The translations under genes were made by a program, and so were the position numbers. From the NCBI RefSeq assembly GCF_009725985.1, contig NZ_RCNR01000039.1:1-43943 (forward strand): a stretch of DNA of 43,943 nucleotides. Reading direction: 5' to 3'. The notes beneath the pieces were generated by a model. It worked only from the letters and a program-made list of their open reading frames with translations. It was not told the DNA's origin and searched no databases. Shown one piece after another: positions 2,226-34,335 of the stretch. Numbering within the stretch: the stretch's first letter is position 1; every line of letters starts with the position of its first letter. This DNA is from Zobellia amurskyensis (GTDB taxonomy: Bacteria; Bacteroidota; Bacteroidia; Flavobacteriales; Flavobacteriaceae).

Positions 2226-3068
2226 ATATTAAGTAAATAAAAAAATTGAAAGTAATTTAATATATAATGAAACTATAGTAAGAATCATAGAAATAACTAG
2301 TTAATAGAATCTTACTATGACACTTTATCAGTTATTAGAAACATATTCATGAATATTTTAGAGCATAGTAAGTAAGCATATTTAAACTTACCAATTGTTC
2401 AAAATAAAGATAACAGCATCCAAAAACAGTTTCGACACTCATACATTAAACAAATAATCTTTCTTAACAACTGTGAATCCTATTTTTTAAAATACTATCG
2501 GCTTCAATTCCTAGTCTAACTATATAAATCCAGAAAGAACATTTCAGGTTTATGATGGATACGTCAGAGATTTTAATTTCACAAACCTGAGGATTTTACT
2601 AATTCATACTCCTATAACATAACCTATTCAAGCACAAAACAGCACCAATTCCAAACACGAATTCGATGATATTTCATGTAATCTTATGAATGTGAAAATT
2701 AACCTGAAACTCATTGTATATATACAGCGCATTGTCCCTCCGATTTTATCCCTTCCCCTACTGCTACACAGTCTACTAGTATCAGGCTCTACATCCTTCA
2801 CTATAAATCAAGTTTGTAAAACAAAGTATTTCCACCCAAAAAATAACATAAGTAGTTCTAAAGTTCGAAATAGGAGTAAAAATGTCCAGAAGTCACAATT
2901 TACAGCATAGTACAGGTAAGTTAACTCATCCCGTTAACATAATATTGTCATGTTGTTAACAAAAGATTAAGAGTCGTATTTCACCTCCAATTCAGCTCTA
3001 ATAAACGAGCCTTCTATTGCTTAAAAAAAACTTAACACCAATCGATTTAAACTCAAAAGGAAAAAGAA
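2226..3068. other. 843-base gene-free region before the first susC
   Basis: This AT-rich stretch has no convincing coding region; the one short open frame (2686-2910) lacks any recognisable protein feature. It holds a 9-base inverted repeat ATAGTAAGA/TCTTACTAT (2275-2283 with 2310-2318) just after the sulfatase, possibly a weak terminator. It also holds an 8-base inverted repeat TCAGGTTT/AAACCTGA (2544-2551 with 2583-2590) of unknown meaning. The shared regulatory block lies at 2873-2923. A decayed gene or a small RNA cannot be excluded. Confidence 0.5.
2873..2923 (+). promoter_or_regulatory. Conserved upstream block of susC pair 1, containing the CAGCATAGTACAGG element
   Basis: This 51-base stretch aligns without gaps to 8187-8237 before the second susC. 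Both begin GGRGTAAAAA, and both carry the core CAGCATRGTACAGG (here 2903-2916) 30 bases in. The core ends 152 bases before the susC start, almost the same distance as at the second pair (162). It is probably an operator bound by the AraC-type output domain of the hybrid regulator at 34336-38421. The similarity is seen directly; the binding partner is inferred. Confidence 0.5.
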
Positions 3069-6000
3069 ATGAAAGAACCTAATTTAAAGAAAATGAAATG
3101 GTTGTTGACACTGTTTCTATTGAACATTGCTAGCTTTTACGCTACTGCACAACAAACCACTGTAACCGGAACGGTAACCGATGTACAAGGCGTACCTATT
3201 CCCGGAGTAAATATTGTGCAAAAAGGGACAACAAACGGTGTTGTATCCGATTTTGATGGTAACTATACCATTAACCTTAATGATGGGTCCGATATTTTAA
3301 TATTCACCTACATAGGATACCGGAGCACGGAAGAAGAAGTTGGTAGCAAAACTATAGTAAACGTGACCTTGAGCGAAGATACCCAAGCCTTGGACGAAGT
3401 TGTGGTTATTGGATATGGTACACAGCGAAAATCGGATTTGACAGGTTCCGTTGCATCCGTAAGTTCCGAGGACATTACCCAAGTACCATCTTCACGTGTA
3501 GATCAAGTACTTCAAGGTAGAGCCGCCGGTGTACAAGTTACCCAAACTAGTGGTGCGCCAGGGGCAGGTACTGTAATCAGGGTTCGTGGAGGAAATTCAA
3601 TCACAGGAAGTAACGAGCCTCTTTGGGTAATAGATGGTATTGTAGTAGGAACCAATTTTAACCTCAACAATATTAATGCAAATGACATTAAATCCATAGA
3701 AATTCTAAAAGATGCATCTTCTATTGCCATTTATGGCTCAAGAGGAGCAAATGGTGTGGTCTTGGTAACTACTAAAAATGGTGCTGGAGCCGGATCTGGA
3801 AAACCGCAGGTTAGTGTAGGCTTATATACCAGTATGCAAATGGTACCCGAACAACCTGATATGCTTACCCAAGCAGAACAAATAGCGTTTACAAATGAAA
3901 GTGCCCGGTTTAGATCGGCCGCAGAGCCATTTCCTAACGCCCCATCTACCTATCCGGATAATGACTGGTACGATTTGTTAATGGACCCATCTCCTATCTA
4001 CAATGCGGATATTTCTATTGCCGGATCATCTGAAAATGGGAACGTAAACTATTACAACTCACTAAATTTTTTCGATCAAGATGGTATTATAAAGAGTTCT
4101 GGAATACAGAAATATATTTTCCGCTCAAATTTAGACATTAAGCTAAATGATAAACTAAAAACAGGATTTCGTATTAACTATTCTAGAATAAGTCAAGATA
4201 ACGGAGTGGTAAGTTTTGGAAACGCCTTTGCCATATTACCCACTCAACCTATTTATAATGATGACGGAACTTTTAACGGTTTTGATGAAGTTATTGGTAC
4301 TCCTTTCTCCAACCCAATAGCAAATATTGCTTTGAATACGAATGAAACCTTTACCAATAATCTATTGGCCACGGCCTATTTGGAATACAAACCGTGGGAA
4401 AATTGGATGATCAGATCTACATTTAGTCCAGAATTCAATAACACCAAGCAAAATAGGTTTATATCTAGCCAAAGTCCGGATTTACTTATAGTAGATGATT
4501 TGGGTAGAGCAAGTGTACGCACCGTAGCTAGTAACGGTTGGAACAATGAAAACACAATTCAATATCAATCAGACTTTAGTGAAAACCACAACTTAACCTT
4601 ACTTGGTGGCGCTTCGTTTCAAAAAGTATCGACCGAAGTTACCGAAGCAGAAGCATTTGGTATTACTAGCGATGCCGTTGGATTCAACAATTTAGGTTTC
4701 TCCGATCCTACGAGATCTGTAATTAACAGTGACTATACTGGATTTCAGATTGCATCATTTTTTGGAAGAATCAACTATTCTTATAAGGATAAATACCTTT
4801 TCACCTTAGTGGGAAGAACAGATGGTAGCTCTGTATTTGCTTCAGGAAACAAGTATGAATTTTACCCTTCTGTGGCAGGAGCCTGGAAAATAAGCGAAGA
4901 AGGCTTCATGCAAAACCAAAGCTTTTTTAAGGATTTAAAGCTGAGAACAAGTTATGGCAAGTCTGGTAATCAAGCTATTGGTCCATATAGAACACTAGGG
5001 TTATTGACCGAAGCGAATACGACCCTGAACGGTTCCGAAATTCCTGGATTGACCCTAGGAAGACCTTCTAACCCCAGTTTAAAATGGGAAACTACCACTT
5101 CTTTTGATATTGCCTTGGAAGCGTCAATGTTCGGGGGTGCTCTATTTACGGAGTTTAACTATTATCAGAAAGAAACAAACGACTTACTGTTAGACGTTAC
5201 CATTCCTAGACAGACCGGTTTTACCAGCCAATTGCAAAATGTTGGATCATTGGAAAATAAAGGATGGGAACTTCTTGTAAACTCCAAAAATATACAAAAT
5301 GATAACTTCAGCTGGAACTCTACCTTAACGTTGTCATCCAACAAAAACAAAATATTGGATCTTGGAGGCGTTGATTTTATAGATGTTACAGTCGATGAAA
5401 TTTTGGGGTCGGGAAATACCCGCCTTATAGTAGGTCAACCGGTTCCTGTCTTTACGGGAGTAAGGTATTTGGGAACCTGGAAAAGTCAGGAAGAAATTGA
5501 TGCTTCGGGCTTAACTTCTCCCCAAGTGGTTGGTGGATCCAGATTTGAAGATTTAAATGGAGATGGTATAATTTCAACCGAAGATAATGTTGTCTTGGGA
5601 GACCCTACCCCAGACCTGATTTTTGGACTACAAAATACATTTACCTATAAGAACTTGGACTTTTCCTTTCATTTTCAAGGAACTAAAGGCAATGAAGTAT
5701 TCAACCTAAGAACACGTAACCACTACTTTAACCGTGGAGAAACCACAAAATTTGGAGACTTACGTAATCGTTGGACAGAAAGCAATACTACCTCAGATAT
5801 TCCAAGAGCTGGTGCGGACTCTGTAACCAATACCCCTAGTAACTCGGAATATGTAGAAGACGGATCGCATGTACGACTTAAAACGGCAAGATTGGCATAT
5901 AATTTTCCAATGGACAAAATGGGATGGGGAGACACAGTCAAAAACATGAGTCTTTATGTTTCCGGAAGTAACCTATTACTGTTTTCCGATTTTAGATTAA

Positions 6001-6119
6001 TAGACCCTGAGACCAGTAGTTTTGGGAGAAACGGTCTGGGTAATATAGCCCAAGGATACTCTAATGGAGAATATCCTAATCCGCGAGTTGTAACACTTGG
6101 TCTAAACGTAACTTTTTAA
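3069..6119 (+). CDS. SusC/RagA-family TonB-dependent outer-membrane transporter, pair 1
   Basis: This 1016-residue outer-membrane channel imports oligosaccharides with energy from TonB. It has a signal peptide ending near ATAQQ. A carboxypeptidase-D-like regulatory domain spans about residues 30-105 (VTGTVTDVQGVPIPGVNI, FDGNYTI). The TonB-box region is ALDEVVVIGYGTQRKSDLTGSV. The plug domain covers about 120-240 (VLQGRAAGVQV, RVRGGNSI, PLWVIDGI, IAIYGSRGANGVVLV), followed by a long beta-barrel ending in an aromatic residue (VTF). Length is typical of SusC. A later Met9 just before the hydrophobic segment is an alternative start. The susD partner follows after 11 bases, forming the classic transporter and lid pair. 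The upstream shared regulatory block suggests substrate induction. Confidence 0.96.
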   Translation: MKEPNLKKMKWLLTLFLLNIASFYATAQQTTVTGTVTDVQGVPIPGVNIVQKGTTNGVVSDFDGNYTINLNDGSDILIFTYIGYRSTEEEVGSKTIVNVTLSEDTQALDEVVVIGYGTQRKSDLTGSVASVSSEDITQVPSSRVDQVLQGRAAGVQVTQTSGAPGAGTVIRVRGGNSITGSNEPLWVIDGIVVGTNFNLNNINANDIKSIEILKDASSIAIYGSRGANGVVLVTTKNGAGAGSGKPQVSVGLYTSMQMVPEQPDMLTQAEQIAFTNESARFRSAAEPFPNAPSTYPDNDWYDLLMDPSPIYNADISIAGSSENGNVNYYNSLNFFDQDGIIKSSGIQKYIFRSNLDIKLNDKLKTGFRINYSRISQDNGVVSFGNAFAILPTQPIYNDDGTFNGFDEVIGTPFSNPIANIALNTNETFTNNLLATAYLEYKPWENWMIRSTFSPEFNNTKQNRFISSQSPDLLIVDDLGRASVRTVASNGWNNENTIQYQSDFSENHNLTLLGGASFQKVSTEVTEAEAFGITSDAVGFNNLGFSDPTRSVINSDYTGFQIASFFGRINYSYKDKYLFTLVGRTDGSSVFASGNKYEFYPSVAGAWKISEEGFMQNQSFFKDLKLRTSYGKSGNQAIGPYRTLGLLTEANTTLNGSEIPGLTLGRPSNPSLKWETTTSFDIALEASMFGGALFTEFNYYQKETNDLLLDVTIPRQTGFTSQLQNVGSLENKGWELLVNSKNIQNDNFSWNSTLTLSSNKNKILDLGGVDFIDVTVDEILGSGNTRLIVGQPVPVFTGVRYLGTWKSQEEIDASGLTSPQVVGGSRFEDLNGDGIISTEDNVVLGDPTPDLIFGLQNTFTYKNLDFSFHFQGTKGNEVFNLRTRNHYFNRGETTKFGDLRNRWTESNTTSDIPRAGADSVTNTPSNSEYVEDGSHVRLKTARLAYNFPMDKMGWGDTVKNMSLYVSGSNLLLFSDFRLIDPETSSFGRNGLGNIAQGYSNGEYPNPRVVTLGLNVTF

Positions 6120-6130
6120 CAATAACACAG

Positions 6131-7714
6131 ATGAAAGCAAAAACTATAATTTTATATGTCTTAGTAATCTTCTCAGGGTTTAGCTGTGAGAAGTTTTTAG
6201 AAGAGGAGCCAAGAGCCCTTATTGCCCCCGAAACATTCTTTGCTTCGGAAAACGACGCAAGACAGGCCGTGAACGGTATATACGCAATTCTAAAGAATAA
6301 TTCTATCTACGGGCAAGTAGGTCTAGATCATTTTTATGACAATGGTGCAGATATAATTGAGCCTAACCGTTCCGCTGATTTTGTAGAGCCTATTGGCAAT
6401 TACTCCATGAATGAGGCATTGGCAGATGTTTCCGTTCAAAAAATGAGTGTTTCGGATACTTGGAAAGATTTGTACAGAGTTATTTTCAATACAAATATCA
6501 TAATTGAACGCGTAACGGGTAACGAAGCAATATCCCAAGAAGCACAGACCAATATAATTGCCGAAACTACATTAATACGTGCTTTATGTTATTGGCATAT
6601 TACCAATCTTTGGGGAGACGCACCATATTATACCGAAGCATTACCGTTGGACGAGGTTAGAGTTTTAGGAAGAACAGATGAGGCTACGATTATTAGTGGA
6701 GTCATGGCTGATTTAGAGTTTGCACAAGCAAACTTACCCAGTTCCTATAGCGGTGACGATAGCGGGAGAGCCTCTAAGTGGGTAGCAGCCATTATAGCTG
6801 CAAAAATCTACATGAAACAAAAAGACTGGAGACCTGCGTTGGATAAGTGTTTAGAGATCATTAACCAGTCCGGCCATTCATTATCGCCTACTTATGAAGA
6901 AGTTTTTGACCCTTCAAATGAGTACAATGCAGAGATTATTTGGTCCTTGGATTTTGCCAAAGATATTAGAGGCCAATTTGAAGAAGGTACGGTAAGGGCC
7001 GATGGTAGTTTACCTAGTGTTTTTGGTAACGGAAACTGGAGGCCAAGTATGTTTAGTCCACGTCTTAGAGACGAACCAAAGAACTCTAGTGAACGTGCTG
7101 CATTGGCGAGTGCTCTTTCTGCCAATGGCGAAGCTTTTAACGGAACTGGTTTACAAGTTGCATCAAAAGATTTTGCCGAAAAATTTCCTCTTAACGATTT
7201 AAGACGGCCTTTAAATGTGATGGACAATTATTTAGGGTTTGAACTTAACTTCCCTTACATGCCAAAAATCTGGAATTTAAACACATCCGATTCTCCTAGG
7301 TTTAATCACAAAGACAATAGGTTAATATTTAGGTTGGCCGATGTCTACCTTATGGCGGCCGAATGTGAAAATGAACTAAACGGCCCAGCAAATGCATATC
7401 AATACATTCATGCAGTTAGAGAGCGGGCTTATGCTACACAAGCTGAATGGGAGCTTGTAGGACTTAGCCAACAAGAATTCAGGGAAGCCATTTATGATGA
7501 GCGTAAGTGGGAGTTAGCGGGTGAGGCCCATAGACGGTACGATTTGATAAGATGGGGAATTTTAATGGATGTAGTCCAAAATTTGGAATACCGTTTCTGG
7601 CAACCTAATCTGAATATTAAACCTTACCATGTATTATTACCTATTCCATTACAAGAATTACAAATAAATCCTGCGTTATTGGAGTCAGATCCAACCAACA
7701 ATGGGTACCGATAA
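6131..7714 (+). CDS. SusD/RagB-family surface glycan-binding lipoprotein, pair 1
   Basis: This 527-residue lipoprotein sits at the cell surface, binds the glycan and acts as the lid of the neighbouring SusC channel. It has a lipoprotein signal (GFSC, Cys19). The typical SusD opening CEKFLEEEPRALIAPETFF is followed by the TPR-like helical region (ARQAVNGIYAIL; TTLIRALCYWHITNLWGDAPYY near 155). The conserved C-terminal segments are LADVYLMAAECENELN, IYDERKWELAGEAHRRYDLIRWG and LLPIPLQELQINP. It starts 11 bases after susC and is followed by a terminator hairpin, so this operon appears to contain only the pair. Identity as a SusD is secure; the ligand is unknown. Confidence 0.96.
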   Translation: MKAKTIILYVLVIFSGFSCEKFLEEEPRALIAPETFFASENDARQAVNGIYAILKNNSIYGQVGLDHFYDNGADIIEPNRSADFVEPIGNYSMNEALADVSVQKMSVSDTWKDLYRVIFNTNIIIERVTGNEAISQEAQTNIIAETTLIRALCYWHITNLWGDAPYYTEALPLDEVRVLGRTDEATIISGVMADLEFAQANLPSSYSGDDSGRASKWVAAIIAAKIYMKQKDWRPALDKCLEIINQSGHSLSPTYEEVFDPSNEYNAEIIWSLDFAKDIRGQFEEGTVRADGSLPSVFGNGNWRPSMFSPRLRDEPKNSSERAALASALSANGEAFNGTGLQVASKDFAEKFPLNDLRRPLNVMDNYLGFELNFPYMPKIWNLNTSDSPRFNHKDNRLIFRLADVYLMAAECENELNGPANAYQYIHAVRERAYATQAEWELVGLSQQEFREAIYDERKWELAGEAHRRYDLIRWGILMDVVQNLEYRFWQPNLNIKPYHVLLPIPLQELQINPALLESDPTNNGYR

Positions 7715-7810: not shown

Positions 7811-8186
7811 TGCGCCTTTTTTACTGTATTTACACACTTTAAAACTCGAAAAGAGCATTTTATATCTATTGGCAAGCGGAAATATAATCCGCAACATTTT
7901 GAGATTAATGTGTAGAAGAAATGCAACGGCTCCATACCCATTCCAAAAAGGAACTGCACAACTCTATTCATACGCTTTAGAGAACATTTTCATCAATCTT
8001 GGGATACCCAGCAATCAAACGTTATCACTCAGACCACAATCGGGAAAAGCACCAATTCCTCCTACAATACACTTAGCCTAAATTTGTATTAGACTATATC
8101 CACCCCCAAATCAATAACTTAAATTTTACCTTAAACATAAATATTATTTTATCGCTGTTATAGATGGTACACAATAATACTTCAAA
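7811..8186. other. Gene-free spacer between the two susCD operons
   Basis: No convincing coding sequence is visible on either strand; the longer open frames here lack start signals and recognisable protein features. A short hairpin GCGGA/TCCGC occurs near 7875-7891. The stretch leads into the regulatory block of the second susC and probably carries its promoter and 5' leader only. Confidence 0.45.
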
Positions 8187-8237
8187 GGGGTAAAAACGTA
8201 CAAAACTACTGAATTTCAGCATGGTACAGGCAAGTAC
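8187..8237 (+). promoter_or_regulatory. Conserved upstream block of susC pair 2, containing the CAGCATGGTACAGG element
   Basis: This block is the counterpart of 2873-2923, alignable over 51 bases without gaps, with core CAGCATGGTACAGG at 8217-8230, 162 bases before the susC start. A second GTACA lies 26 bases upstream of the one in the core, which would fit a direct-repeat operator for an AraC-type regulator. Another GGTACA occurs at 8166-8171. The role is inferred from conservation and position. Confidence 0.5.
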
Positions 8238-8392
8238 TTTTAATCCAAATAAGTATCATTGGTCAAGCGAATTTAATGGGAAAGGGGATATAGTTCTCTC
8301 TTAATAGGCGCCTAAGACCTGGTAGTAAAACTAAGACTGCTTCCTCCCCTGTTCGATTCAAACAAATACTCAACAAAACTAAATTTAACGAG

Positions 8393-11300
8393 ATGAAAAG
8401 AAACTTTCACGAACATTTTAAACGCTTTTTGGCTCTGTCCATAATGTTCTTGGCCAGTTACTATGCCAGTGCCCAGCAAAAGACGGTCACTGGAACGGTA
8501 ATTGCTGCGGACGGCCTGCCCATACCAGGTGTGAACATTGTACAAAAAGGCACTAACAACGGATCGGTATCCGACTTTGATGGTAATTACAGTATTAAAC
8601 TTTCCGACGGCAGTAAAACTCTAGTATTTTCCTACATAGGTTATAAAACCGTAGAACGATCTTCTAGTAAAAAAACAGTAATAGATGTTACTCTTGAAGA
8701 AGATTCACAAGCTTTAGATGAAGTAGTTGTAATTGGTTACGCTGCAGTTTCTCGCGAAAAAGTACTAGGTGCATTGTCTTCTGTAAAGTCTGAAGATATT
8801 GCCCAAGTCACCCCTACCAACGCTTTTGAAGGGGTACAAGGTCGTTTAGCGGGAGTTCAAATCGCATCAAACAGTGGCCCTGGTGGTTCTTTTGATATTA
8901 GAGTAAGGGGAACTTCTACCTTTAGCGCTGGCGGTACGGGTCCTCTTTATGTGGTAGATGGGCAGCAACTAGATAACATAGATAACATTGACCCAAATGA
9001 TATTGCCTCCTTAGAAGTGCTAAAAGATGGAGCTACTACAGCTATTTACGGAACAAGAGGAGCAAATGGTGTAGTACTTATAACAACCAAGTCGGGAAAA
9101 TCGGGGGAAGTAAACGTAGACGTAAATGTTGTAACAGGAATCAATACCTTAAACGGTGCAATTCCGGTATCCAATACAAGACAGCGCTTATTTTATGAAG
9201 ATGTACGAAGAACACCCCAACAAAGGGAAACCCCTGCCGGTCGTGATAGGGATTCACTAAGCCTATTGGTGAGAAATTCTGCTGATTTGCAAGATTTAAT
9301 TACAAAAGCCGGCATCCGTAATCAAATAAATGTTTCACTAAGTTCTGGCAGCGATAAATTAAAAGCCTATTGGAATACAGGATATTTAGAAGAGGACGGT
9401 ATTGTCCTTAACAGTGATTTTAAAAGAATCAACACTAGATTTAAATTAGACTTTACACCAAGTAAAAAACTGACGGTGAGTACTTCATTTAATGGGTCTT
9501 TTGAAGAGCTTAACGGTTTAAGCGAATTTCAGGTTTTTACACAACTGGTGCAGCGTATTCCATATTACCCACTCTTTCAGCCTGATGGCACTTACACACC
9601 TGATTTGTTCAGTAGACAAAACCCACTGGCAGAAGCTGAACTACGTACCCAGAAACTAAGAACTTGGCGAGGTCAAAGTTTTAATTCCATACAATATAAA
9701 ATTACCCCTTCATTTTCCCTAAAATCTACACTGGGTCTAAACTTTAGGCTAAGAAGAGATAATATATTTTCTCCATTATTGGTATTAAGTAGAAGAGCAG
9801 TAAATGCAGAGGGAAGTTTTCGAGATCGAATAGATTACGACATCCAGCAAGAAAATTTCATGAACTACAACAACACTTTTGGAAAACATAGTGTATCAGG
9901 GTTCGCAGGTATGCAGATTCAGCGTCGTTTTGGAGAGAATTTTGGTCTTAACAGTACTGAATTTGTCTCTGAAGACATTAGGACATTTAATAATGCCATA
10001 CCGGAAGACCTTGCAATCAATGCTGGGCAAACCTTCAACTCCCGAAGTAATCTGTTCTCTTTGTTCGGAGGGTTTAATTACGATTTTGACAACCGCTATC
10101 TCATAAGTGGTACGATAAGACGTGATGGTTCATCTCGTTTTGGTGACAATAAAGAATTTGGTTATTTCCCATCGGGTTCAGTAGGCTGGCGTGTTAGTAA
10201 CGAGCCTTTCCTTAAGAATAGCGGTGTTGTTAATAATTTACTTATAAGAGCTAGTTATGGTGAGACCGGTAACGACAGGATTGGAGATTACGATTTTGTT
10301 TCCGCATTTTTACCAGGAGCCATTTATAACGACGTAAGTGGAGTTTCTCCTACTAGGCTCGGTAACCCGGAGTTAAGCTGGGAAAGCACCAACCAAACCA
10401 ACCTTGGTTTTGATCTTGGTATGTTCAAGAACAGGTTAACGTTTACATTTGAAGCTTGGAGAAAAGATACCGAAGATTTGTTGGCAACCGTTCAATTACC
10501 GGAAGAATCCGGCTTTAACGGTATTCGCCAAAATGTTGGAGCCGTAAGGAACCAAGGGCTTGAGTTTAATCTTAGCGGTACCATATTAAGAACAAAAGAC
10601 TTCAGTTGGAACAGTAACTTTAATATCACTATCCAAGAAAATGAAGTTACCAAATTAGCAGGAGGCACTCCTTTTAGAAGCGGTGATTACTTAATTGAGG
10701 AGGGACAGCCAATTGGTAACATTTCAGGATACAAAAACCTTGGTGTTTACCAATATGACGAGTCTAATGCGTATACCGATGCCGGCGTACAACTTACACC
10801 TAATTTTAATGCATCCGGAGATTTTGAGAATTATACCCTAAACGGCCAGAACTATACGGGTAATGTTAACCAAATGAAAAATGGAGGAGCTACCCCACAA
10901 GGTGGAGACATCATATGGGAAGACCTAGACGGAGATTTTAATATTACTACCGAAGATCGCCAGACCATTGGAAATGGACTACCTACAACCTTTGGTGGTT
11001 TCTCCAATGATTTTAAGTACAAAGAACTGAGTTTAAGCTTCCTTTTAGATTACACCTTTGGTAATGACGTTTGGAAAAGATGGGACGAAGAACGTGATGA
11101 TTTAAACAATAGTGTAGAAACTCCTGGTCCTTTTCGTATTGACGGTGCTTGGCAGAACCCAGGAGATGTTACCGTTTATCCTAGATTGACCCGAGTGGCA
11201 CAGAACCGGGAAAGACCCAATAGCTTTTTTGTTGAAGATGGAAGTTTCATAAAACTAAGATTTGTTCGTCTTGGGTACGAGTTACCAAAATCAGTTTTGG

Positions 11301-11485
11301 ACAAAATGAACATCTTTAAAAAGTGCGCATTCTACATATCTGCCAATAATCTGGTTACTTGGACAAATTACACAGGATTTAATCCAGAATTGGGAACACG
11401 CGGTAATCCACTGCAACCAGGTAATGATGGTTTAAGATTTCCAAACGACCGTGAAGTAATATTAGGCTTAAATCTTAAATTTTAA
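8393..11485 (+). CDS. SusC/RagA-family TonB-dependent outer-membrane transporter, pair 2
   Basis: This 1030-residue outer-membrane oligosaccharide importer has the same domain order as the first SusC. The signal peptide ends near ASAQQ. The carboxypeptidase-D-like domain includes VTGTVIAADGLPIPGVNI and FDGNYSIKLSDG. The TonB-box region is ALDEVVVIGYAAVSREKVLGAL. The plug includes AFEGVQGRLAGVQI, RVRGTSTF, PLYVVDGQQL and TAIYGTRGANGVVLI. The barrel ends in LNLKF. The N-terminal 110 residues are close to those of pair 1, while the plug and barrel have diverged. The pairs are therefore paralogous but probably recognise different fragments or lengths of the glycan. SusD follows after 12 bases and a fasciclin-like lipoprotein completes the operon. 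Confidence 0.96.
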   Translation: MKRNFHEHFKRFLALSIMFLASYYASAQQKTVTGTVIAADGLPIPGVNIVQKGTNNGSVSDFDGNYSIKLSDGSKTLVFSYIGYKTVERSSSKKTVIDVTLEEDSQALDEVVVIGYAAVSREKVLGALSSVKSEDIAQVTPTNAFEGVQGRLAGVQIASNSGPGGSFDIRVRGTSTFSAGGTGPLYVVDGQQLDNIDNIDPNDIASLEVLKDGATTAIYGTRGANGVVLITTKSGKSGEVNVDVNVVTGINTLNGAIPVSNTRQRLFYEDVRRTPQQRETPAGRDRDSLSLLVRNSADLQDLITKAGIRNQINVSLSSGSDKLKAYWNTGYLEEDGIVLNSDFKRINTRFKLDFTPSKKLTVSTSFNGSFEELNGLSEFQVFTQLVQRIPYYPLFQPDGTYTPDLFSRQNPLAEAELRTQKLRTWRGQSFNSIQYKITPSFSLKSTLGLNFRLRRDNIFSPLLVLSRRAVNAEGSFRDRIDYDIQQENFMNYNNTFGKHSVSGFAGMQIQRRFGENFGLNSTEFVSEDIRTFNNAIPEDLAINAGQTFNSRSNLFSLFGGFNYDFDNRYLISGTIRRDGSSRFGDNKEFGYFPSGSVGWRVSNEPFLKNSGVVNNLLIRASYGETGNDRIGDYDFVSAFLPGAIYNDVSGVSPTRLGNPELSWESTNQTNLGFDLGMFKNRLTFTFEAWRKDTEDLLATVQLPEESGFNGIRQNVGAVRNQGLEFNLSGTILRTKDFSWNSNFNITIQENEVTKLAGGTPFRSGDYLIEEGQPIGNISGYKNLGVYQYDESNAYTDAGVQLTPNFNASGDFENYTLNGQNYTGNVNQMKNGGATPQGGDIIWEDLDGDFNITTEDRQTIGNGLPTTFGGFSNDFKYKELSLSFLLDYTFGNDVWKRWDEERDDLNNSVETPGPFRIDGAWQNPGDVTVYPRLTRVAQNRERPNSFFVEDGSFIKLRFVRLGYELPKSVLDKMNIFKKCAFYISANNLVTWTNYTGFNPELGTRGNPLQPGNDGLRFPNDREVILGLNLKF

Positions 11486-11497
11486 AATTAAGAAACA

Positions 11498-13096
11498 ATG
11501 AAATCTATATACACACATCAACATATACTAAAAATAGCCTTGGCTACTTTGGTTGTTTCATTTGCACTATCGTGCGACGATTTGGTAGACGAATCACCAA
11601 TAAGTGAAATTAACCCAAATGGTTTTTTCAGGACCAACAAAGACGCTTTAGGTTCGGTAATAGGTACGTATGACGCCATGCAAGGTGCCGTGAGGCTCCA
11701 ACATTTTTATTGGGGCGAGTTCAGGGCTGACAATTATGACCTTAATGAAGCTGCCAATCCAAATAACGCGGAACTTGCCAATAACAATGTAACCCAAGGA
11801 AATAATCAAGCTTTGGACTGGGGCAACTGGTACGATATGATCAATAGAGCAAATTTTGCCATTTCACAAATTCCAACTATACCAAATTTTGACGCCAACT
11901 TATTAGCGGAGGCACAAGCCCTTAGAGCTTTTGCCTATTTTCAAGCCATACGTGTTTGGGGCGATGTTCCTTTATTTATAGAGCCCACAGCAAGTGCCGA
12001 AGACATAGAGGCATTGGCCAAACCTAGAGCGGATGCCAACACTATACTAAATGAGGTTATTATACCGGACATGTTGGCCGCTGAAGAAAATTTCACCATA
12101 AACAGATTAACCGATCCCTATAGGTTTTCCTTAACGAGCCTGTGGTCTCTACAAGCTGAAGTTTATGGTTATCTGGGCAACGATGAAGCCGCTCGTGAAG
12201 CACTTTTAAAAGTAGTGAACAGCAATAGGTTCAGTTTGACCAACACCCCGGAAGATTGGCAAAACCTTTTCCTGAACGACAATGGTCTAGAAGGCGATCA
12301 AGCAGGGCCGTTAAAATTCCAAACCGGTCCGGAATTGATTATGTCAGTTAATTATAACATTACAGAACCTGCCGGTGGAGGCAATGTAAACAGATCTGGA
12401 ATTTTCAGCCTCTTTTTTGCAGGTGTACCCTCTTATTTAATGTCCACAAATTTAGAGAACAAATGGCGTGAAAAATTCCCTGTAGATTCTTTAGAGTGGG
12501 TTACAAAATATCCGAACACAGAACCCGCATTAGCAGAAACTCTCATTATTACAGATGAAAACGGTACAGAAAGAGATTCTCTTGTTCCAATATATGGAGA
12601 CTATCGCTTCTATTTTTCTAGAGAGGGAGGAACAGATTTAAGTGTGAGAGAAATTGGAGAGGCCAGAATGGCCAAATACAATAAGTCCAATTATAATGTT
12701 CAGTTTGATGATACGGATATTGTTCTATATAGATATTCCGGAACACTTCTGTATTTAGCCGAGCTGGAAAACAGGTTGGGCAATGATGCCAGGGCCTTAG
12801 AGTTGGTAAACGAAATCAGGACCGCCCGACAGCTTCCTCTTGTAGATGCAATGGTATTTGGAGTTTCCGTTGAAGAAAGGGAGCTTTTCATTCTAGATGA
12901 GCGTCAATTGGAGTTGTTTGGAGAGGCCCACAGATGGTGGGACCTTATACGAACAGGAAGAGCTATCGAAATTATGAACCCTATTTTAAGTAGTTCCGAA
13001 GAAGGAGTGCCATTAACAGAGGAGCGTTTGTTTCTACCGGTTTTTGAAGAACACTTGCTAGAAAATGAAAATCTGGAGCAAACTCCTGGTTATTAA
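11498..13096 (+). CDS. SusD/RagB-family surface glycan-binding lipoprotein, pair 2
   Basis: This 532-residue cell-surface glycan-binding lipoprotein is the lid of the second SusC. Its lipoprotein signal is ALSC (Cys26), followed by the SusD opening DDLVDESPISEINPNGFF. The TPR-like region includes AEAQALRAFAYFQAIRVWGD near residues 145-164. Conserved C-terminal segments are YSGTLLYLAELENRLGN, ILDERQLELFGEAHRWWDLIRTG and LFLPVFEEHLLENENLEQTPGY. It lies 12 bases after susC and 23 bases before the fasciclin-like lipoprotein gene. It is clearly divergent from the first SusD, which again suggests the two importers take different ligands. Confidence 0.96.
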   Translation: MKSIYTHQHILKIALATLVVSFALSCDDLVDESPISEINPNGFFRTNKDALGSVIGTYDAMQGAVRLQHFYWGEFRADNYDLNEAANPNNAELANNNVTQGNNQALDWGNWYDMINRANFAISQIPTIPNFDANLLAEAQALRAFAYFQAIRVWGDVPLFIEPTASAEDIEALAKPRADANTILNEVIIPDMLAAEENFTINRLTDPYRFSLTSLWSLQAEVYGYLGNDEAAREALLKVVNSNRFSLTNTPEDWQNLFLNDNGLEGDQAGPLKFQTGPELIMSVNYNITEPAGGGNVNRSGIFSLFFAGVPSYLMSTNLENKWREKFPVDSLEWVTKYPNTEPALAETLIITDENGTERDSLVPIYGDYRFYFSREGGTDLSVREIGEARMAKYNKSNYNVQFDDTDIVLYRYSGTLLYLAELENRLGNDARALELVNEIRTARQLPLVDAMVFGVSVEERELFILDERQLELFGEAHRWWDLIRTGRAIEIMNPILSSSEEGVPLTEERLFLPVFEEHLLENENLEQTPGY

Positions 13097-13119
13097 ACTG
13101 AAAACATAAAATTAAAAAA

Positions 13120-15838: not shown

Positions 15839-15852
15839 CAGGATAGTACAAG
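15839..15852 (+). promoter_or_regulatory. Shared regulatory element CAGGATAGTACAAG before the GH5-GH2-GH78 operon
   Basis: It matches the susC-1 core CAGCATAGTACAGG at 12 of 14 positions. It lies 39 bases before the GH5 start codon, closer than at the susC genes, so the promoter geometry must differ. It is one of five such sites, all in intergenic DNA. The function is inferred. Confidence 0.4.
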
Positions 15853-15891
15853 ATAGATATCACTATCCAAGAACGTATTTTACCTCCGAAA

Positions 15892-17325: not shown

Positions 17326-17326
17326 G

Positions 17327-20213: not shown

Positions 20214-20260
20214 AACAAAACAATAGTCAACTCAACAAGAACAACTCAAACTCGCCGAAA

Positions 20261-23792: not shown

Positions 23793-23801
23793 AACAGTTG
23801 T

Positions 23802-25502
23802 TTAAATATTCATTTTCTTTAATTCCTCTACAGCATGATTGGCTGCTCTTGCCGTTAGAGCCATGTATGTTAGTGAAGGATTTTGACATCCTGCAGAGGT
23901 CATACAAGCCCCATCGGTAACATATACATTAGGCACTTCATGCAGCTGGTTGTATTTATTTAAAACCGAAGTTTTCGGGTCCTTACCCATTCTAGCCGTA
24001 CCCATTTCGTGAATACCGCCTCCCATGTACGATTCCCTTTTGTTGGCCCTGACATCTTTAAAGCCTGAATTTTCCAACATTTCTTGGGCCTGCTCTATCC
24101 AATCTTTTTTCATCCGTTTTTCGTTATCTTTGAACTCGGCATCAAAAACAATTGTAGGTAAACCGTAGTCATCAAGCTTATCATAATTTAATGACATATG
24201 GTTTTCATGATACGGCAATACTTCTCCAAAACCGCCCAAGTTAATTCGCCAACCTCCAGGTTCCAGCATGGCTGCTTTCAATTCTTCTCCGTAGGCATAC
24301 TCAGGAATCAAAGTACTAAAGTCATTACGCCCGGCACTACCTTGGTATCCGTAACCCCGTATAAAATCTACTTTTTTAGAGGTGGAATCTACATTTCTAA
24401 ACCTTGGTATATAAAACCCGTTAGGTCTTCGTCCTTTATAGTACTTATCATCATAGCCATCTATTTTTCCGCTTGCACCACCACCTAATTGGTGATCCAT
24501 GATATTGTGTCCCAATTCACCACTGGCATTGCCCATACCGTTTGGAAAAATATCTGACTTTGATTGCATCAAAATTGCCGTAGAAGCCATGGACGAAGCA
24601 CACAAGAAGACTATTTTAGATTTAAACTCTATTACTTCCTTAGTATTGGCGTCTACAATCTTGACTCCTGTAGCTTTTTTTGTTTCCTTGTCGTACAATA
24701 CCTCGCAAACAATAGAATCTGGTCTTAGCGTCATATTTCCTGTAGCCTCTGCCATGGGAAGTGTTGATGAATTTGAGCTAAAATAACCACCGTACGGACA
24801 CCCGCGTTTGCAACGGTTCCTGTATTGGCAGGTTCCTCTTCCTGCCCCCGGTTTTGACCCTTCCGTAATATGAGCAACCCTACCTATGGTTAGTACACGA
24901 TCATCATATTTTTCAGAAATACCATTCTTTAAATGCTCTTCCACGCAATTGAGTTCCATAGGTTTTAAAAACACGCTGTCCGGTAAATGGGGCAACCCTA
25001 GGGCCTCTCCACTAATACCTACATGTTTTTCCACATGCTCATACCATGGCTTTAAATCTTTATATCGAATAGGCCAGTCTACACCAATACCATCTTTGAC
25101 ATTGGCTTCGAAATCCAAATCTGACCAACGATAGGTTTGCTTGCCCCATATGAGGGAACGGCCACCAACCTGTGTACCTCGAATCCAATCAAATCTTTTT
25201 GTTTCATCATAATCATATTTTGAATCGTCATTAAAAAAATGACGTGTGGTTTCATCAAAACCCCAACGCGATTGCTTTGGATATTTTTCCTTTATTTTAG
25301 CTGGGGTCTCACCTCCATTTGGTAAGTCCCACGGATCAAGGTTCATAGTTGGATAATCAACTACATGTTGTACCATTCTTCCACGTTCCAGAACTAAAGT
25401 TTTAAGCCCGTTCTCGCAAAGCTCTTTTGCTGCCCATCCTCCACTGACTCCGGTACCCACTACAATAGCATCAAAAGTTGTTGTTTCTGGTTTAATTGAC
25501 AT
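23802..25502 (-). CDS. GMC-family FAD-dependent oxidoreductase (gluconate/sugar dehydrogenase large-subunit type)
   Basis: This 566-residue flavoprotein is expected to oxidise an alcohol or sugar hydroxyl. The FAD-binding Rossmann motif GTGVSG lies at residues 16-21 with the acidic end LVLERG. A cysteine-rich segment CQYRNRCKRGCPYGG near 224-238 is typical of the dehydrogenase branch with a subunit-3 partner. The C-terminal GMC motif has His498 in HEMGTARMG and Asn541 in CQNPSLTY, the catalytic His/Asn pair. No signal peptide is visible, so export would depend on the Tat-type partner encoded 9 bases downstream. The shared regulatory element lies 151 bases before the start, as at the susC genes. 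It is therefore probably induced with the importers. The substrate may be a monosaccharide released from the glycan, but this is inference. Confidence 0.92.
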   Translation of the reverse strand: MSIKPETTTFDAIVVGTGVSGGWAAKELCENGLKTLVLERGRMVQHVVDYPTMNLDPWDLPNGGETPAKIKEKYPKQSRWGFDETTRHFFNDDSKYDYDETKRFDWIRGTQVGGRSLIWGKQTYRWSDLDFEANVKDGIGVDWPIRYKDLKPWYEHVEKHVGISGEALGLPHLPDSVFLKPMELNCVEEHLKNGISEKYDDRVLTIGRVAHITEGSKPGAGRGTCQYRNRCKRGCPYGGYFSSNSSTLPMAEATGNMTLRPDSIVCEVLYDKETKKATGVKIVDANTKEVIEFKSKIVFLCASSMASTAILMQSKSDIFPNGMGNASGELGHNIMDHQLGGGASGKIDGYDDKYYKGRRPNGFYIPRFRNVDSTSKKVDFIRGYGYQGSAGRNDFSTLIPEYAYGEELKAAMLEPGGWRINLGGFGEVLPYHENHMSLNYDKLDDYGLPTIVFDAEFKDNEKRMKKDWIEQAQEMLENSGFKDVRANKRESYMGGGIHEMGTARMGKDPKTSVLNKYNQLHEVPNVYVTDGACMTSAGCQNPSLTYMALTARAANHAVEELKKMNI

Positions 25503-25874
25503 TTATCTTTTTATTAGATTATTTTAATTCTAACCACAAATAGTTTTGCTTGACTATTTTTATCGGTAATCAATCCAAAGCATTTTTTTTAAGTCATCGA
25601 AAAATTTGCTTAGAAAAGAATTTAAAATTAGGCTTTTGCATAAAAAAAGGTGTCCTGCACTGTACTGTAAAGCTCATTTGAGATATGTTATACACGCCCT
25701 TTATAAAAACTCCTTATTAAAAAACTACGGCTATCTAGAACAAAAATTATTGCCGTTAAAAAAGATAACCCTACTATAAAAACAGACATCATATTTACAT
25801 TACTCTTTCCCATAGCAAAGAGCCGTTACTAGGTATTGAACGTGATACATTAAACTATTTCCTTAATTACTCCA
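25503..25874. other. 372-base gene-free region before the GMC operon
   Basis: No coding region was found. It contains the shared regulatory element on the minus strand (25654-25667), placed to control the GMC operon. It also covers the 3' end of the three-sulfatase operon, for which no clear terminator hairpin was recognised. Confidence 0.5.
25654..25667 (-). promoter_or_regulatory. Shared regulatory element CAGTACAGTGCAGG before the GMC operon
   Basis: Read on the minus strand, the 20 bases around it match the susC-1 site at 15 of 20 positions, including the flanking TTA. The core ends 151 bases before the GMC start codon, the same geometry as the two susC sites (152 and 162). This supports co-regulation. 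The binding protein is inferred. Confidence 0.45.
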
Positions 25875-30595: not shown

Positions 30596-33109
30596 TTACT
30601 CCGTGTCAAATTGTATTACCCCTCTCTTTAAAGCGTTTGACTTTAATTCTTTAGAACCCAATTTTAACACCTCTCCTTCTCCTATGTATAATACTATATT
30701 AGTACCATGAGCTTTAGCAGTCTTACGAACTACGCCAAATCGCCCTTTGAAGTAAAGATCTAAAGCCTCATTCTTATAAATAGCGTTATTGTTATCTTGA
30801 GATATGATAATATCCGATACAAGCGAATCTTTGACTTTGGAGATTATAATGGCACCTACAATCTTATCTCCGTCCCATAATGGTTCTACCTTTTGAATAC
30901 TAGCTTCTTTTTGAGTTGAAGGTTCAAATATTCCAATATAGGGTCTATCCCAAGCTTCACCCTGTTGCCTAACGGCCAATACTTGGGTCTTTTTATCTAT
31001 ATACCCGTTTTTTGCTTCGCGAGTTGGAGGTGCCAATGCTTTGGTGTATTCCCTAGAAACTCCTTCTGGAATAAAAAGGTGCATGAAAGTGTTGTCAAAT
31101 TCAATATCAAACCTAACCTTTATTCCTTTTTTAGTAGCCTTAGTTGATTGTGTGCCCTCATAATAACGCCATCCGGGAGACTTCACTACGTCACCAATGT
31201 TATTTTGATAGCGGTTTGTTTTTTTTAGTGTCAATTCCTGATTATCCAAAGTAAAAATTTGGGTTCTATCGCCTATATTATGATAGACATAATCATGGAA
31301 TTTATTTTCATCATTGGATTTAGAGCGAAACATATCAAAATAATATCCCGTAGTTGCACTAGTTCTTATAATACTTAAGGTACGTTCCTGTTTTGCATTG
31401 TTTACGGTATCATCCAAGAATTGAGTAGCAAAATTGAACTCTTTGGATATTCTTTCTTCCAAATGCTTGGGTTCCGCTGCGATATTTACCGTTTTATTCT
31501 GCCAAACATTAGCCTTGCCCTTCCATGAACCCTCGTCCTGCCCATGGGAAGAACCGTTCACTATTACCGTATTATTTCCCGCGTATAATCTGAAATAGTG
31601 TTCGTGCAAAGGAATTTTTCGCTCAGGAACAGAAGCCGGCAGACCTGCATTGGGCGCCATTATATAGCCCGCTCCATACAATTCCATACTTATTCCCGTA
31701 AGATGACTATGTACGTAGTGGGCTCCGCCTATAATACCGCATAATCCATACGTTTCATTATTTTCATCAACATAATTCCGTTGAAGAGCTATACCCGCAT
31801 GGTCTACAATAACGGTGGCTTTATCCAAGTTAACCGAGTCTTTCATTTTTTTGGGTACGGACTGTCCCCAAAATAGCTCCAACAAATTAAAATTATCAAA
31901 GATACTACCTGTGGATAGGTTTGGTCTATGACCTCCATTGGCCTCATAAGAATTTTTAAGAGCTAATTCCGCTTTATTTTGCAATGTCTTATATCCTTTT
32001 CTTGATGCAAGGTTCAATGTGTATCTATACAAATCCCCTGTAAAGTCATTATACCGTTTTGAATCTCCGTATCTAACAAAGGTCCTGTTGGGGTGTCGTA
32101 AATAATCGAATAGAAAGTTTCCTTCAAGAACATGTTTATAATCTGCCGTTACGTTCATTTCCGGTTTGACACGATCTACAATATTCAACACCATCGTAAT
32201 AATGGGCATAAAACTGTAGCTAAGTGATTCCGGCCAAATTCCTTGCCCCGAGAACATAGGCAAGATGGTATTCTTGAACGAGTTTTGATGAGCTGTACCC
32301 TTCTCCCAAAAAGTTTTGAACAGACGCTCACGTTCCATGTCATCTTCAATACATAAAATTCCAAATAGTGCTCCAGGTGCGGTAAGTATAGGATGGTTGG
32401 AAACTCTCTTACCATGTACATCCGGCTTTCCATATTCTTGCAGAACATTGCCTACCATATTGGCAATTGCCTTTTGTGCTTTAGTATTATCAAAAGCAAC
32501 TAAGTGACCCTTGTTTTTATCAAAGACCTTTACATTTTTTTGCTTTAAATAATTGTAGATAAAATCGTAGGCTACGGCAAATGGGGCATATGTAGTTCTT
32601 GGATCAAAAAAAGCATACCCGCATATAGTAGTGGTTTCGGGCGTTTTAATAGACAAAACATCTGTGTACACGGCTAAAATATCCGCTGCAAACTGTGCAT
32701 ATTTTTCATCTTGTGTTATGAAATATAGCGCTCCTGCATTAGCCGCTAGAGACAATACCTCGTTATGCGCAGCTGCTATTGGGCCGACTTCTCTTTCTTT
32801 GTTCTCATGGTCATGAACCGCAAACGCGGGTATTCTATTTAAAATAATTAACGGATGGGTCTGATGAACTTCCAAAGCTCCATCTACATGTTCATGCAAT
32901 TGAGAGACGACACTTTCTGCCCAATCATATTTTTTAATTTTCTCTAAAACAAAATCTCTTTCCTGTTGTGTTGTATAAATTATGGGATGTTGCAATGACT
33001 GCCCCTTAACCGTAATTGCCGTTAAAAAGAGAACTATAGAAATCCCTTTAAGAAATAGTTGATTTATCAAATAACATCCTGTAAGAGATTCTATACTAGA
33101 TTTTCCCAT
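30596..33109 (-). CDS. Heparinase II/III-like polysaccharide lyase
   Basis: This 837-residue secreted protein has a hydrophobic signal ending near TVKGQS. Residues about 50-400 form an alpha-helical toroid, and from about 430 a beta-sandwich with the heparinase II/III-like segment GGAHYVHSHLTGISMELYGAGY. Candidate catalytic residues by analogy with this fold are Asn238-His239 (RVSNHPIL), Tyr298 (WPESLSYSF) and His464 or a neighbouring His. It would cleave uronate-containing chains by beta-elimination. Ulvan lyase families with a related fold exist (PL37 and PL40 by recall); family assignment needs a profile search. It is encoded 35 bases after the nucleoside-hydrolase-like gene, in an operon preceded by the shared element. 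It is the main candidate for the chain-cutting step in this locus. Confidence 0.85.
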   Translation of the reverse strand: MGKSSIESLTGCYLINQLFLKGISIVLFLTAITVKGQSLQHPIIYTTQQERDFVLEKIKKYDWAESVVSQLHEHVDGALEVHQTHPLIILNRIPAFAVHDHENKEREVGPIAAAHNEVLSLAANAGALYFITQDEKYAQFAADILAVYTDVLSIKTPETTTICGYAFFDPRTTYAPFAVAYDFIYNYLKQKNVKVFDKNKGHLVAFDNTKAQKAIANMVGNVLQEYGKPDVHGKRVSNHPILTAPGALFGILCIEDDMERERLFKTFWEKGTAHQNSFKNTILPMFSGQGIWPESLSYSFMPIITMVLNIVDRVKPEMNVTADYKHVLEGNFLFDYLRHPNRTFVRYGDSKRYNDFTGDLYRYTLNLASRKGYKTLQNKAELALKNSYEANGGHRPNLSTGSIFDNFNLLELFWGQSVPKKMKDSVNLDKATVIVDHAGIALQRNYVDENNETYGLCGIIGGAHYVHSHLTGISMELYGAGYIMAPNAGLPASVPERKIPLHEHYFRLYAGNNTVIVNGSSHGQDEGSWKGKANVWQNKTVNIAAEPKHLEERISKEFNFATQFLDDTVNNAKQERTLSIIRTSATTGYYFDMFRSKSNDENKFHDYVYHNIGDRTQIFTLDNQELTLKKTNRYQNNIGDVVKSPGWRYYEGTQSTKATKKGIKVRFDIEFDNTFMHLFIPEGVSREYTKALAPPTREAKNGYIDKKTQVLAVRQQGEAWDRPYIGIFEPSTQKEASIQKVEPLWDGDKIVGAIIISKVKDSLVSDIIISQDNNNAIYKNEALDLYFKGRFGVVRKTAKAHGTNIVLYIGEGEVLKLGSKELKSNALKRGVIQFDTE

Positions 33110-33144
33110 GCTCCATATTAAGTTTAGTTCAAAAATTTTTGATT

Positions 33145-34029
33145 TTAATTCTTATCTATGAAATCCAACAAAAGTGCTTTTACGTCTTTTACAGTTCCCA
33201 ACTCCAGTCCTCCGTTCGTTGCTCCAGTTATCCAGTACAAAATCATACCTGCATCCGAACAATCCCATTTTCCCTTTTGAAACTTAACAACATCATCTAC
33301 TTCGGCAATTTTCCCCTGAAGCCAGATTTGTTGCAGTCTAGAATCCGGATGGTTTTTGGCCCAATCCCATTCTGGCAATGCTACTTTTAAATGGGTGTTT
33401 TGATCTGGAATACGAACTTCTTCCACTCCAAAATCCAATATTTGCTGCCATGTGTAAAAGTCTCCCGCATTATCATTAGCTGGATGATGCGTTACTACTT
33501 TCACATATTTATGTTTTGATTTTTCCGATGCATCTAGGGCCATTCCAATAATATCGGGCTCCCCTGCCTCGATAATCCAAAGCGGATCCTTTTCGGATGA
33601 AGCGTTAATTGCAGTTTTTAAATCGTTCACCGTTTTTTCTTTTTGCCAACTAGCATCTAAAAAAGTTAAGCCCGAAAAACCACCCCACCTTCTTGCAGTA
33701 ACATCGCACGAACTCTGCATTAATGCATGTCTTTCATTTTCCGCTCGTTCAGAAATTCGGTCACCCCTAACCAAATCACAACTATGGGAATAATGCACAA
33801 GTCTATTATCTAGATTTGCAGCTCTTAATAGTGCCAAAGAAACAGCAGTACCCCCTAAATCATCAGGGTCAGGGGAATTCCCATCTGCAACAATTGCAAT
33901 GCGCCCCGCTGGTGGTTGAATCTCCGGCAACGTTTTTGTCTCCTTTATATTAGTTTGCCCCATTAAGGTACCACACAAAACCATGCAAAAAAGGAACAGG
34001 TAAACAACAATGCATTTTTTCATTTCCAT
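33145..34029 (-). CDS. Secreted nucleoside-hydrolase-like protein
   Basis: This 294-residue protein has a signal peptide ending near LMGQT (Met3 is an alternative start). The segment RIAIVADGNSPDPDDLGGTAVSLALL carries an Asp cluster (D49, D54, D56, D57) that resembles the calcium-binding DxDxxxDD motif of nucleoside hydrolases. Later segments PLWIIEAGEPDIIGMALDASE and VKVVTHHPANDNAGDFYTW fit the same Rossmann-like fold. Secretion and a place at the head of a lyase operon argue against nucleoside salvage. A role as a glycosidase or ligand-binding protein acting on the same glycan is possible but unproven. The shared regulatory element lies 52 bases before the start. The fold call is from motif recall. 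Confidence 0.72.
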   Translation of the reverse strand: MEMKKCIVVYLFLFCMVLCGTLMGQTNIKETKTLPEIQPPAGRIAIVADGNSPDPDDLGGTAVSLALLRAANLDNRLVHYSHSCDLVRGDRISERAENERHALMQSSCDVTARRWGGFSGLTFLDASWQKEKTVNDLKTAINASSEKDPLWIIEAGEPDIIGMALDASEKSKHKYVKVVTHHPANDNAGDFYTWQQILDFGVEEVRIPDQNTHLKVALPEWDWAKNHPDSRLQQIWLQGKIAEVDDVVKFQKGKWDCSDAGMILYWITGATNGGLELGTVKDVKALLLDFIDKN

Positions 34030-34335
34030 TCTAGTTCAATAGATATCTCTCAAAATTAACTTTCAAATAAAATGATAGCATCCTGTACTGTCCCGATGTA
34101 GCCATTTCTAAAACAGAATTAGCACTTCACCAAAAAAATAATTTTGGTAATTCCTTCTTTTCATTAATTTTGAAAACCGACATTGCTCCATTGTTAAAAT
34201 TGCCCACTCCGTTTTTTGCATTATTTTAGGTTCCAAGGGTTTCCATAAAACCATATGATTACCAAGAAAGATTAAATCATTTTTTTATAATACTTGCTTC
34301 ATATCAAAACTGTATCAAGAAACTAAAAATCACGA
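34030..34335. other. 306-base divergent intergenic region between the lyase operon and the regulator gene
   Basis: No gene is present. It holds the divergent promoters for the leftward lyase operon and the rightward hybrid regulator. The shared element at 34082-34095 is oriented toward the lyase operon and 240 bases from the regulator start. Confidence 0.5.
34082..34095 (-). promoter_or_regulatory. Shared regulatory element CGGGACAGTACAGG before the lyase operon
   Basis: On the minus strand it contains AGTACAGG exactly as at the susC-1 site and matches the consensus CAGNAYAGTACAGG except at position 2. It lies 52 bases before the nucleoside-hydrolase-like start. It could also influence the divergent regulator gene. 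The function is inferred. Confidence 0.4.

Follow-up and report, generated by a model that had tools for sequence, protein, structure and literature searches.

A head-to-tail repeat ahead of five transcription units of a Zobellia amurskyensis polysaccharide locus is probably the operator of a rhamnose-linked GntR regulator, not of the local hybrid two-component system

The stretch of Zobellia amurskyensis DNA analysed here (contig NZ_RCNR01000039.1, positions 1 to 43,943; 'the window' hereafter means these 43,943 nucleotides) carries a polysaccharide utilization locus (PUL) in which a near-identical 14-bp element precedes five transcription units. Which protein reads this element? The first-pass annotation took it for the operator of the hybrid two-component system regulator (HTCS) encoded at 34336. 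Our analysis indicates that it is probably not the operator of this HTCS and that, judging from sequence comparison, it is very likely that of a RhaR-like GntR protein encoded outside the window. This GntR regulator, tied to rhamnose, appears to coordinate the seaweed-polysaccharide locus of the window with other polysaccharide loci and with rhamnose-breakdown genes.

All five sites were recovered at the positions and on the strands first reported, the one at 2903 exact and the other four with 1 mismatch each. The element extends past the 14-mer: positions 15-18 belong to it, giving 18 bp. The operators found by the 14-mer search are thus located at 2903..2920 (susC1, CAGCATAGTACAGGTAAG, two 8-bp repeats with a 10-bp period), 8217..8234 (susC2, CAGCATGGTACAGGCAAG) and 15839..15856 (GH5-GH2-GH78, CAGGATAGTACAAGATAG) on the forward strand, and at 25650..25667 (GMC operon, CAGTACAGTGCAGGACAC) and 34078..34095 (lyase operon, CGGGACAGTACAGGATGC) on the reverse strand. 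With at most 1 mismatch the window holds these 5 matches, compared to a mean of 0.05 and a maximum of 1 in 200 dinucleotide shuffles and to 0 for the reversed pattern; none has 2 mismatches, and the remaining matches among the 20 listed all have 3. The five sites are indeed all intergenic (intergenic share of the window 9.0% by the list of open reading frames (ORFs); 0.09^5 = 6e-6), and each is directed at the gene downstream. The distance from the end of the 14-mer to the ATG, announced as 151-162 bases at three sites, is 152 (2903), 162 (8217) and 151 (25654); it is 39 (15839) and 52 (34082) at the remaining two. A TAnnTTTG-like box starts exactly 23 nt past the 14-mer at 5/5 sites: TAATATTG (2940..2947, 1 mismatch to TAnnTTTG), TATCATTG (8254..8261, 1 mismatch) and TATTTTAC (15876..15883, 2 mismatches) on the forward strand, TAATTTTA (25623..25630, 1 mismatch) and TAATTTTG (34051..34058, 0 mismatches) on the reverse strand.

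In the genome (5.14 Mb), the 14-mer at 1 mismatch or fewer gives 22 matches versus 2 for the reversed pattern, well above the expectation from the reversed sequence, although several matches lie inside genes. A composite pattern (14-mer, 23 nt, TANNTT, at most 2 mismatches) gives 19 matches, with 0 for its reversed form. Inspection of ORFs placed 16/19 composites ahead of a gene; of the other 3, two are inside genes (C1:204219, C9:93328) and one is doubtful (C22:62163). Outside the window, 6 of the 22 14-mer matches fall in one other cluster, C19, which carries 7 composites. The element is common to five transcription units of the window and marks a regulon, as had been proposed, but this regulon is not confined to the PUL. 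One of the C19 sites (C19:8307) precedes an operon of RhaEW (bifunctional rhamnulose-1-phosphate aldolase), RhaI, RhaB, a lactate dehydrogenase and a transporter; the last has no Pfam or NCBIfam match and is named from its place.

Divergent from this rhamnose operon lies the gene of the RhaR-like GntR protein (348 aa, G000:C19:8457-9503), which combines a GntR winged helix (PF00392) with a periplasmic-binding-protein-like/LacI-like domain (PF13377). Its predicted structure (pLDDT 88.6, pTM 0.69) has mostly LacI-family regulators as best Foldseek matches. Among GntR-related stretches in named genomes, the best 80 of 127 were kept (at least 64% identity); they include loci of Zobellia, Maribacter, Arenibacter, Algibacter, Polaribacter, Flavobacterium and Lewinella. 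The composite is present in 72 of the 80, with 141 sites in 1.58 Mb and 0 for the reversed pattern. Genes downstream of the 141 sites encode RhaEW (58) or a SusC relative (22), while no ORF was assigned for 10. The operator is therefore found ahead of rhamnose catabolic genes in several genera, as a rhamnose regulon would have it.

The association was also seen in a sample of 299 Flavobacteriaceae genomes, scanned with a refined composite and, for GntR, a cut-off of E<=1e-95. The element is present in 62 genomes and GntR in 60: 58 carry both, 4 the element only, 2 GntR only and 235 neither, and the reversed refined composite gave 0 in every one of the 299. Among the 70 genomes with RhaEW, the element occurs in 57/59 with GntR and in 2/11 without it; the latter two have a sister regulator and a matching change in the repeat. 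Both GntR-only genomes (one being G203) have weaker sites at RhaEW, and two of the element-only genomes, G252 and G276, carry a sister regulator (clade B, see below). Ten of the 11 RhaEW genomes without the main GntR were inspected (all but G327): a GntR of 39-43% identity is encoded nearby in G067, G138, G252, G276 and G094, and in G027 and G031 GntR is found only elsewhere or at 41-43%. In G005, GntR adjoins RhaEW, and another locus has a RhaEW remnant with RhaI. The element is spread over 56/236 sampled genera of the family, and occurs in 6 Lewinella-type loci as well.

The 14-mer belongs to a longer direct repeat of 18 bp, CRGNAYRS-TA-CAGGAYRS, whose units recur every 10 bp and of which it is the core. 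A logo built from 154 distinct sites (of 158) reads aCRGNAYAGTACAGGAYRS-N19-TANNTTTG. The search pattern biases its positions 1-14 and TANNTT, but conservation extends to positions 15-18 and the final TG, which the pattern left free. Shifted by 10 bp, the matrix matches itself with 7.3 of 12.1 bits; against its reverse complement the score was negative in all registers tried. The element is therefore a direct repeat, and does not have the palindromic form of an AraR-type operator; an imperfect AraR-like palindrome, considered as a reading of the element, was rejected on this matrix comparison. In the 141 sites, arrays are of two units in 131 cases, three in 2 and four in 8.

The spacing to the downstream box was measured on 108 14-mers (at most 1 mismatch) from the 80 named GntR loci, chosen without regard to promoter. 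An exact TANNTTTG starts at offset 23 in 42 of them, 33 in 2 and 43 in 3, with none in the rest of the range 5-59; with 1 mismatch allowed, offset 23 is found in 91/108. For the box on the opposite strand no offset has more than 2/110, and 98/110 14-mers of these loci lie outside ORFs. Sigma-A promoters have a TTG as their -33 element; in the logo, TTG is not conserved where this element is expected. The box present here at fixed spacing, TAnnTTTG, corresponds to the sigma-A -7 box, placed at -12 to -5 in a flavobacterium according to PMC9723704, and on that published position relative to the start the 18-bp element therefore lies at about -49 to -32.

Joint variation of regulator and repeat provides a further link. 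Clade B consists of four GntR proteins adjoining RhaEW in G067, G138, G252 and G276, 39-41% identical to the main GntR and monophyletic with 100/100 support. Their recognition helix differs from that of the main clade (clade A) by V for E, among other differences (SRDTVEKAY against SRDT[VI]V[KR]AY). Clade-B loci carry repeats of type CAGAACRGTACAGAAC, with A as fourth base in each of the two units; the copies depart from it by one base in G067 and by two in G276. When RhaEW promoters were scanned with a pattern that leaves bases 4 and 14 free, 64 of the 65 examined in clade A (84 loci) matched, all 64 with G at base 14, and 2 of the 4 examined in clade B, both with A. A search of 279 genomes with the variant pattern found 10 sites, spread over 9 genomes. 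Clade-B genomes account for 4 of them (three of the four genomes), 5 are main-type sites that just reach the limit of 2 mismatches, and the last is in G068, which has no clade-B gene. The sample is small, but a change of both units together with the protein is what would be expected of a dimer reading two equal units. Near the genes of more distant GntR/LacI hybrids (L279, L193, L124; helix SRDTVFK), we also observed CAGAACAGAACAG-like repeats, and direct-repeat operators may be general in the GntR/LacI-hybrid family.

How would the RhaR-like GntR protein act on this element? A GntR dimer could read the two head-to-tail 8-bp units through its two winged-helix domains, and its LacI-like domain would bind L-rhamnose or a catabolic intermediate, an effector suggested by the nature of the targets. 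The operator would occupy the place of the -33 element, where GntR would recruit RNA polymerase. Provided that GntR is the binder, we favour activation over repression, because the operator lies at the -33 element place with no TTG conserved and with spacing and orientation fixed. Sugar-relieved repression by GntR, as with AraR, is the main alternative on mechanism; it is the usual mode of GntR/LacI hybrids, and a site over the -33 region could block polymerase, but a fixed one-orientation spacing to the -7 box and the absence of a conserved -33 TTG fit an activator better, and we regard it as possible but rather doubtful. A protein other than GntR, an AraC-family or other unlinked activator with GntR as mere neighbour, is less likely again. 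Direct repeats of 10-bp period at -49 to -32 do suit AraC or DeoR proteins, and the RhaR of Bacteroides thetaiotaomicron is of AraC type (PMC3878776). The clade-B co-variation nevertheless points to GntR, and the sole AraC gene found beside a site (C16:65362), the one gene that this check covered, has orthologues of at least 68% in only 7/299 genomes and is missing from 56/62 element genomes; it was rejected as the regulator on this distribution.

The two other readings are far less probable. That the element is the -35 part of an alternative, extracytoplasmic function (ECF) sigma promoter would account for the fixed spacing to the downstream box, but this box is that of sigma-A (PMC9723704) and the element duplicates in 10-bp steps; we give this reading the least credit of all. 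Scarcely more credible is the original assignment to the HTCS at 34336. The five sites do surround the HTCS gene, and predicted HTCS operators of B. thetaiotaomicron are direct repeats, but these are on average 21 bp apart in PMC3878776, and the 14-mer, examined for such a period, has one of 10 bp. The element also precedes rhamnose catabolism genes away from the window HTCS, and none of the window matches of 14-mer type is directed at the HTCS gene. Distribution across relatives led us to reject the HTCS as regulator of the 14-mer: the composite with at most 1 mismatch has 2 to 6 sites in each of G001, G002, G004, G005, G006 and G008, six genomes of the same genus without an HTCS match, whereas G017 has an HTCS relative (45% identity) and no element match. 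This search covered 60 relatives, with at most the best 10 candidates per genome scored, and gave 6 matches at E<=1e-250, own genome included, a threshold that does not rule out more distant HTCSs. In genomes outside the GntR group, the composite at up to 2 mismatches is near background (0-4 matches, 0-3 reversed).

Several points weigh against the RhaR-like GntR as reader of the element. Eight of the 80 GntR loci have no composite within the fetched stretch, and G133 and G249 have the element but no GntR. Rhamnose genes can also do without the element: in G278, G301 and G320 the RhaEW stretches lack it, and lack a GntR nearby. As GntR usually adjoins RhaEW, linkage confounds the co-occurrence, and a regulator encoded elsewhere with a similar distribution could give the same pattern. 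The sampled genomes share ancestry, and Fisher p-values on these counts overstate their independence. Clade B comprises 4 genomes, and a direct match was obtained at only 2/4 of their RhaEW promoters; the remaining two have a more divergent repeat elsewhere in the cluster. The E/V residue is not a full one-residue code: E is present in the GntR of G031 (41-42% identical, sister to clade B), a genome in which the element was not found, and V is shared by a distant GntR group. B. subtilis AraR and similar GntR/LacI-type regulators bind palindromes and repress, in contrast to the direct repeat at an activator-like position found here. Finally, the support is one of sequence comparison.

If not the 14-mer, what does the HTCS read? 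A different element, upstream of the two susC genes, has the geometry of HTCS operators, which in B. thetaiotaomicron are predicted as direct repeats on average 21 bp apart (PMC3878776). The candidates are direct repeats of 21-bp period on the forward strand, at 2852..2891 for susC1 (proximal copy AGGAGTAAAAATGTCCAGAA at 2872-2891) and 8166..8206 for susC2 (proximal copy GGGGTAAAAACGTACAAAAC at 8187-8206), both in promoters of the HTCS's own PUL. Both susC promoters of the window species and of G003, G007 and G018 carry AGGNGTAAAAANGTACAAAAC with 0-3 departures in the proximal copy (8/8 promoters); its GG begins 30 bp upstream of the 14-mer, and a weaker copy lies 21 bp further upstream (8/8). 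Over these 8 promoters from 4 species, T-38/T-17, C-36/C-15 and GG(-29,-28) are found in 8/8, and the upstream G-50 and G-49 each in 7/8. The susC1 and susC2 promoters may share ancestry, which makes conservation between them weaker evidence than conservation between species. The 21-bp-period element was not found at the other three promoters of the locus; in the window and a further 221 kb of the same genome, the two susC promoters are the sole places with its two-copy form. Nor was it found at the susC1 promoter of G009 (HTCS 55%) or upstream of susC in G017 (HTCS 45%), whose HTCS operators may have diverged. From its sequence, this repeat seems a better HTCS operator candidate than the 14-mer. 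The PUL of the window would then respond to two signals: five transcription units to rhamnose, by way of the GntR operator, and the two susC promoters alone also to the HTCS, probably through the 21-bp-period repeat. The earlier statement that operators of hybrid regulators are rarely known was too strong, as PMC3878776 predicts motifs for 16/36 HTCSs of B. thetaiotaomicron.

The genes placed under the five operators were identified with Pfam. Operator 1 precedes susC1-susD1 (3069..7714, forward; Plug, CarbopepD_reg_2; SusD_RagB) and operator 2 precedes susC2-susD2 and a 237-aa protein without Pfam match (8393..13833, forward). Downstream of operator 3 are the GH5, GH2 and GH78 (alpha-L-rhamnosidase) genes (15892..23023, forward); their promoter (15876-15892) is expected to give a leader of ~3-4 nt, hence a nearly leaderless transcript. 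On the reverse strand, operator 4 stands before a GMC oxidoreductase and a gluconate 2-dehydrogenase subunit 3-like protein (23154..25502), and operator 5 before a 294-aa protein without Pfam match and an 837-aa protein that matches the heparinase II/III C-terminal domain weakly, short of the curated cut-off (30596..34029). The HTCS gene itself (34336..38421, forward) encodes Reg_prop, Y_Y_Y, HisKA, HATPase, receiver and AraC-type HTH domains, the AraC domain being at residues ~1230-1361. A sulfatase of the window (14068-15804) has an Ig_Rha78A_N domain at its end. In G003 (L247-L249), a PUL of the window type is contiguous with the rhamnose operon, and in G007 (L250) susC1 follows a rhamnose transporter-like gene, a sulfatase gene being ahead of susC1 in the window. 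GntR genes of 78% (L254:6119-7165, G018) and 57% identity (L256:4212-5252, G009) were also seen inside a PUL or beside an HTCS.

Outside the window, targets were identified with Pfam and NCBIfam. Besides the rhamnose operon, C19 sites precede a Ppx/GppA-type phosphatase gene (C19:10430; the sulfatase gene divergent from it has a weaker site, with 3 mismatches), susCD (C19:12917) and an ORF for a sulfatase (C19:19395); the stretch that comes next encodes sulfatase and rhamnosidase domains. The stretch C19:19395-22916 unites sulfatase and GH78 rhamnosidase domains, which with the Ig_Rha78A_N sulfatase of the window suggests a sulfatase-rhamnosidase fusion family. C19 targets also include a GH78 rhamnosidase (C19:33215-35977), a sulfatase (C19:36586, 434 nt from the site) and an ECF sigma/FecR/susC cassette (site C19:33066); with a site ahead of this cassette (C19:27720-33133), the rhamnose operator may have a PUL with trans-envelope signalling nested beneath it. 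Elsewhere, sites stand before a rhamnose mutarotase (C9:101487), a GH78-like protein followed by a second rhamnose mutarotase (C29:21742), a GH88/105 protein (C96:2373) and a cytochrome c protein (C16:64816). Both mutarotase genes (C29:23501 and C9:101173, Pfam rhaM) are in operator-preceded units. Operators at the GMC oxidoreductase/gluconate-dehydrogenase subunit 3 pair (window 23154-25502) and at the cytochrome c protein (C16:62129-64816) hint at periplasmic sugar oxidation. We infer that the polysaccharide is rhamnose-containing and sulfated, such as ulvan.

Compared with known systems, the element shares traits with several and coincides with none of them. HTCS operators of B. thetaiotaomicron (PMC3878776) are likewise direct repeats in PUL promoters, and the second susC element described here has their 21-bp repeat; the 14-mer differs by its 10-bp repeat, by tracking GntR and by covering monosaccharide catabolism and more than one PUL. 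The Bacteroides RhaR BT3768 also controls rhamnose catabolism but belongs to the AraC family and, in PMC3878776, has a single target operon, versus 16/19 genome matches ahead of genes in many units here. PMC3870299 describes rhamnose regulons with AraC, DeoR and LacI regulators; the operators of its DeoR-family RhaR are imperfect direct repeats of 10-11 bp periodicity, as here, for another protein family, and 'GntR' has 0 occurrences in the main text of that article. As in B. subtilis AraR (GntR DNA-binding and LacI-like sugar domains), a winged helix, here matching PDB 4egy (E 6e-6, residues 13-81), is followed by a LacI-like domain. Some MocR proteins, a group that includes PdxR and GabR, bind direct repeats and activate; in NCBIfam the winged helix matches PdxR best, with a score far short of the cut-off, and MocR proteins have an aminotransferase domain where the GntR studied here has a LacI-like one. 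AusR of Zobellia galactanivorans is reportedly a GntR regulator of alginate use; by description only, it resembles the present protein as a GntR for algal polysaccharide use in the same genus, with a different sugar and system. No GntR rhamnose regulator of Bacteroidota was recognised in literature searches of titles and abstract starts, and the RhaR-like GntR and its operator appear undescribed in the literature searched.

Tentatively, and with somewhat less than even confidence in the whole, these elements can be joined in one model: a clade of Bacteroidota GntR/LacI hybrids would bind head-to-tail 10-bp repeats as obligate activators replacing the -33 element, their recognition helix (E/V among other differences) would choose G or A in both repeats, and monosaccharide sensing would be wired to several PULs, each HTCS adding an oligosaccharide signal only at susC promoters. 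Control of a PUL is usually described as local, exerted by an HTCS or sigma factor of its own. In one marine flavobacterium, the candidate GntR operator connects the rhamnose pathway with two PUL clusters and with separate rhamnosidase, mutarotase and GH88/105 units. It offers a testable promoter architecture, a candidate regulator and a natural specificity change, beside a separate and much narrower HTCS operator candidate, and it could be used to find rhamnose-related PULs by promoter sequence.

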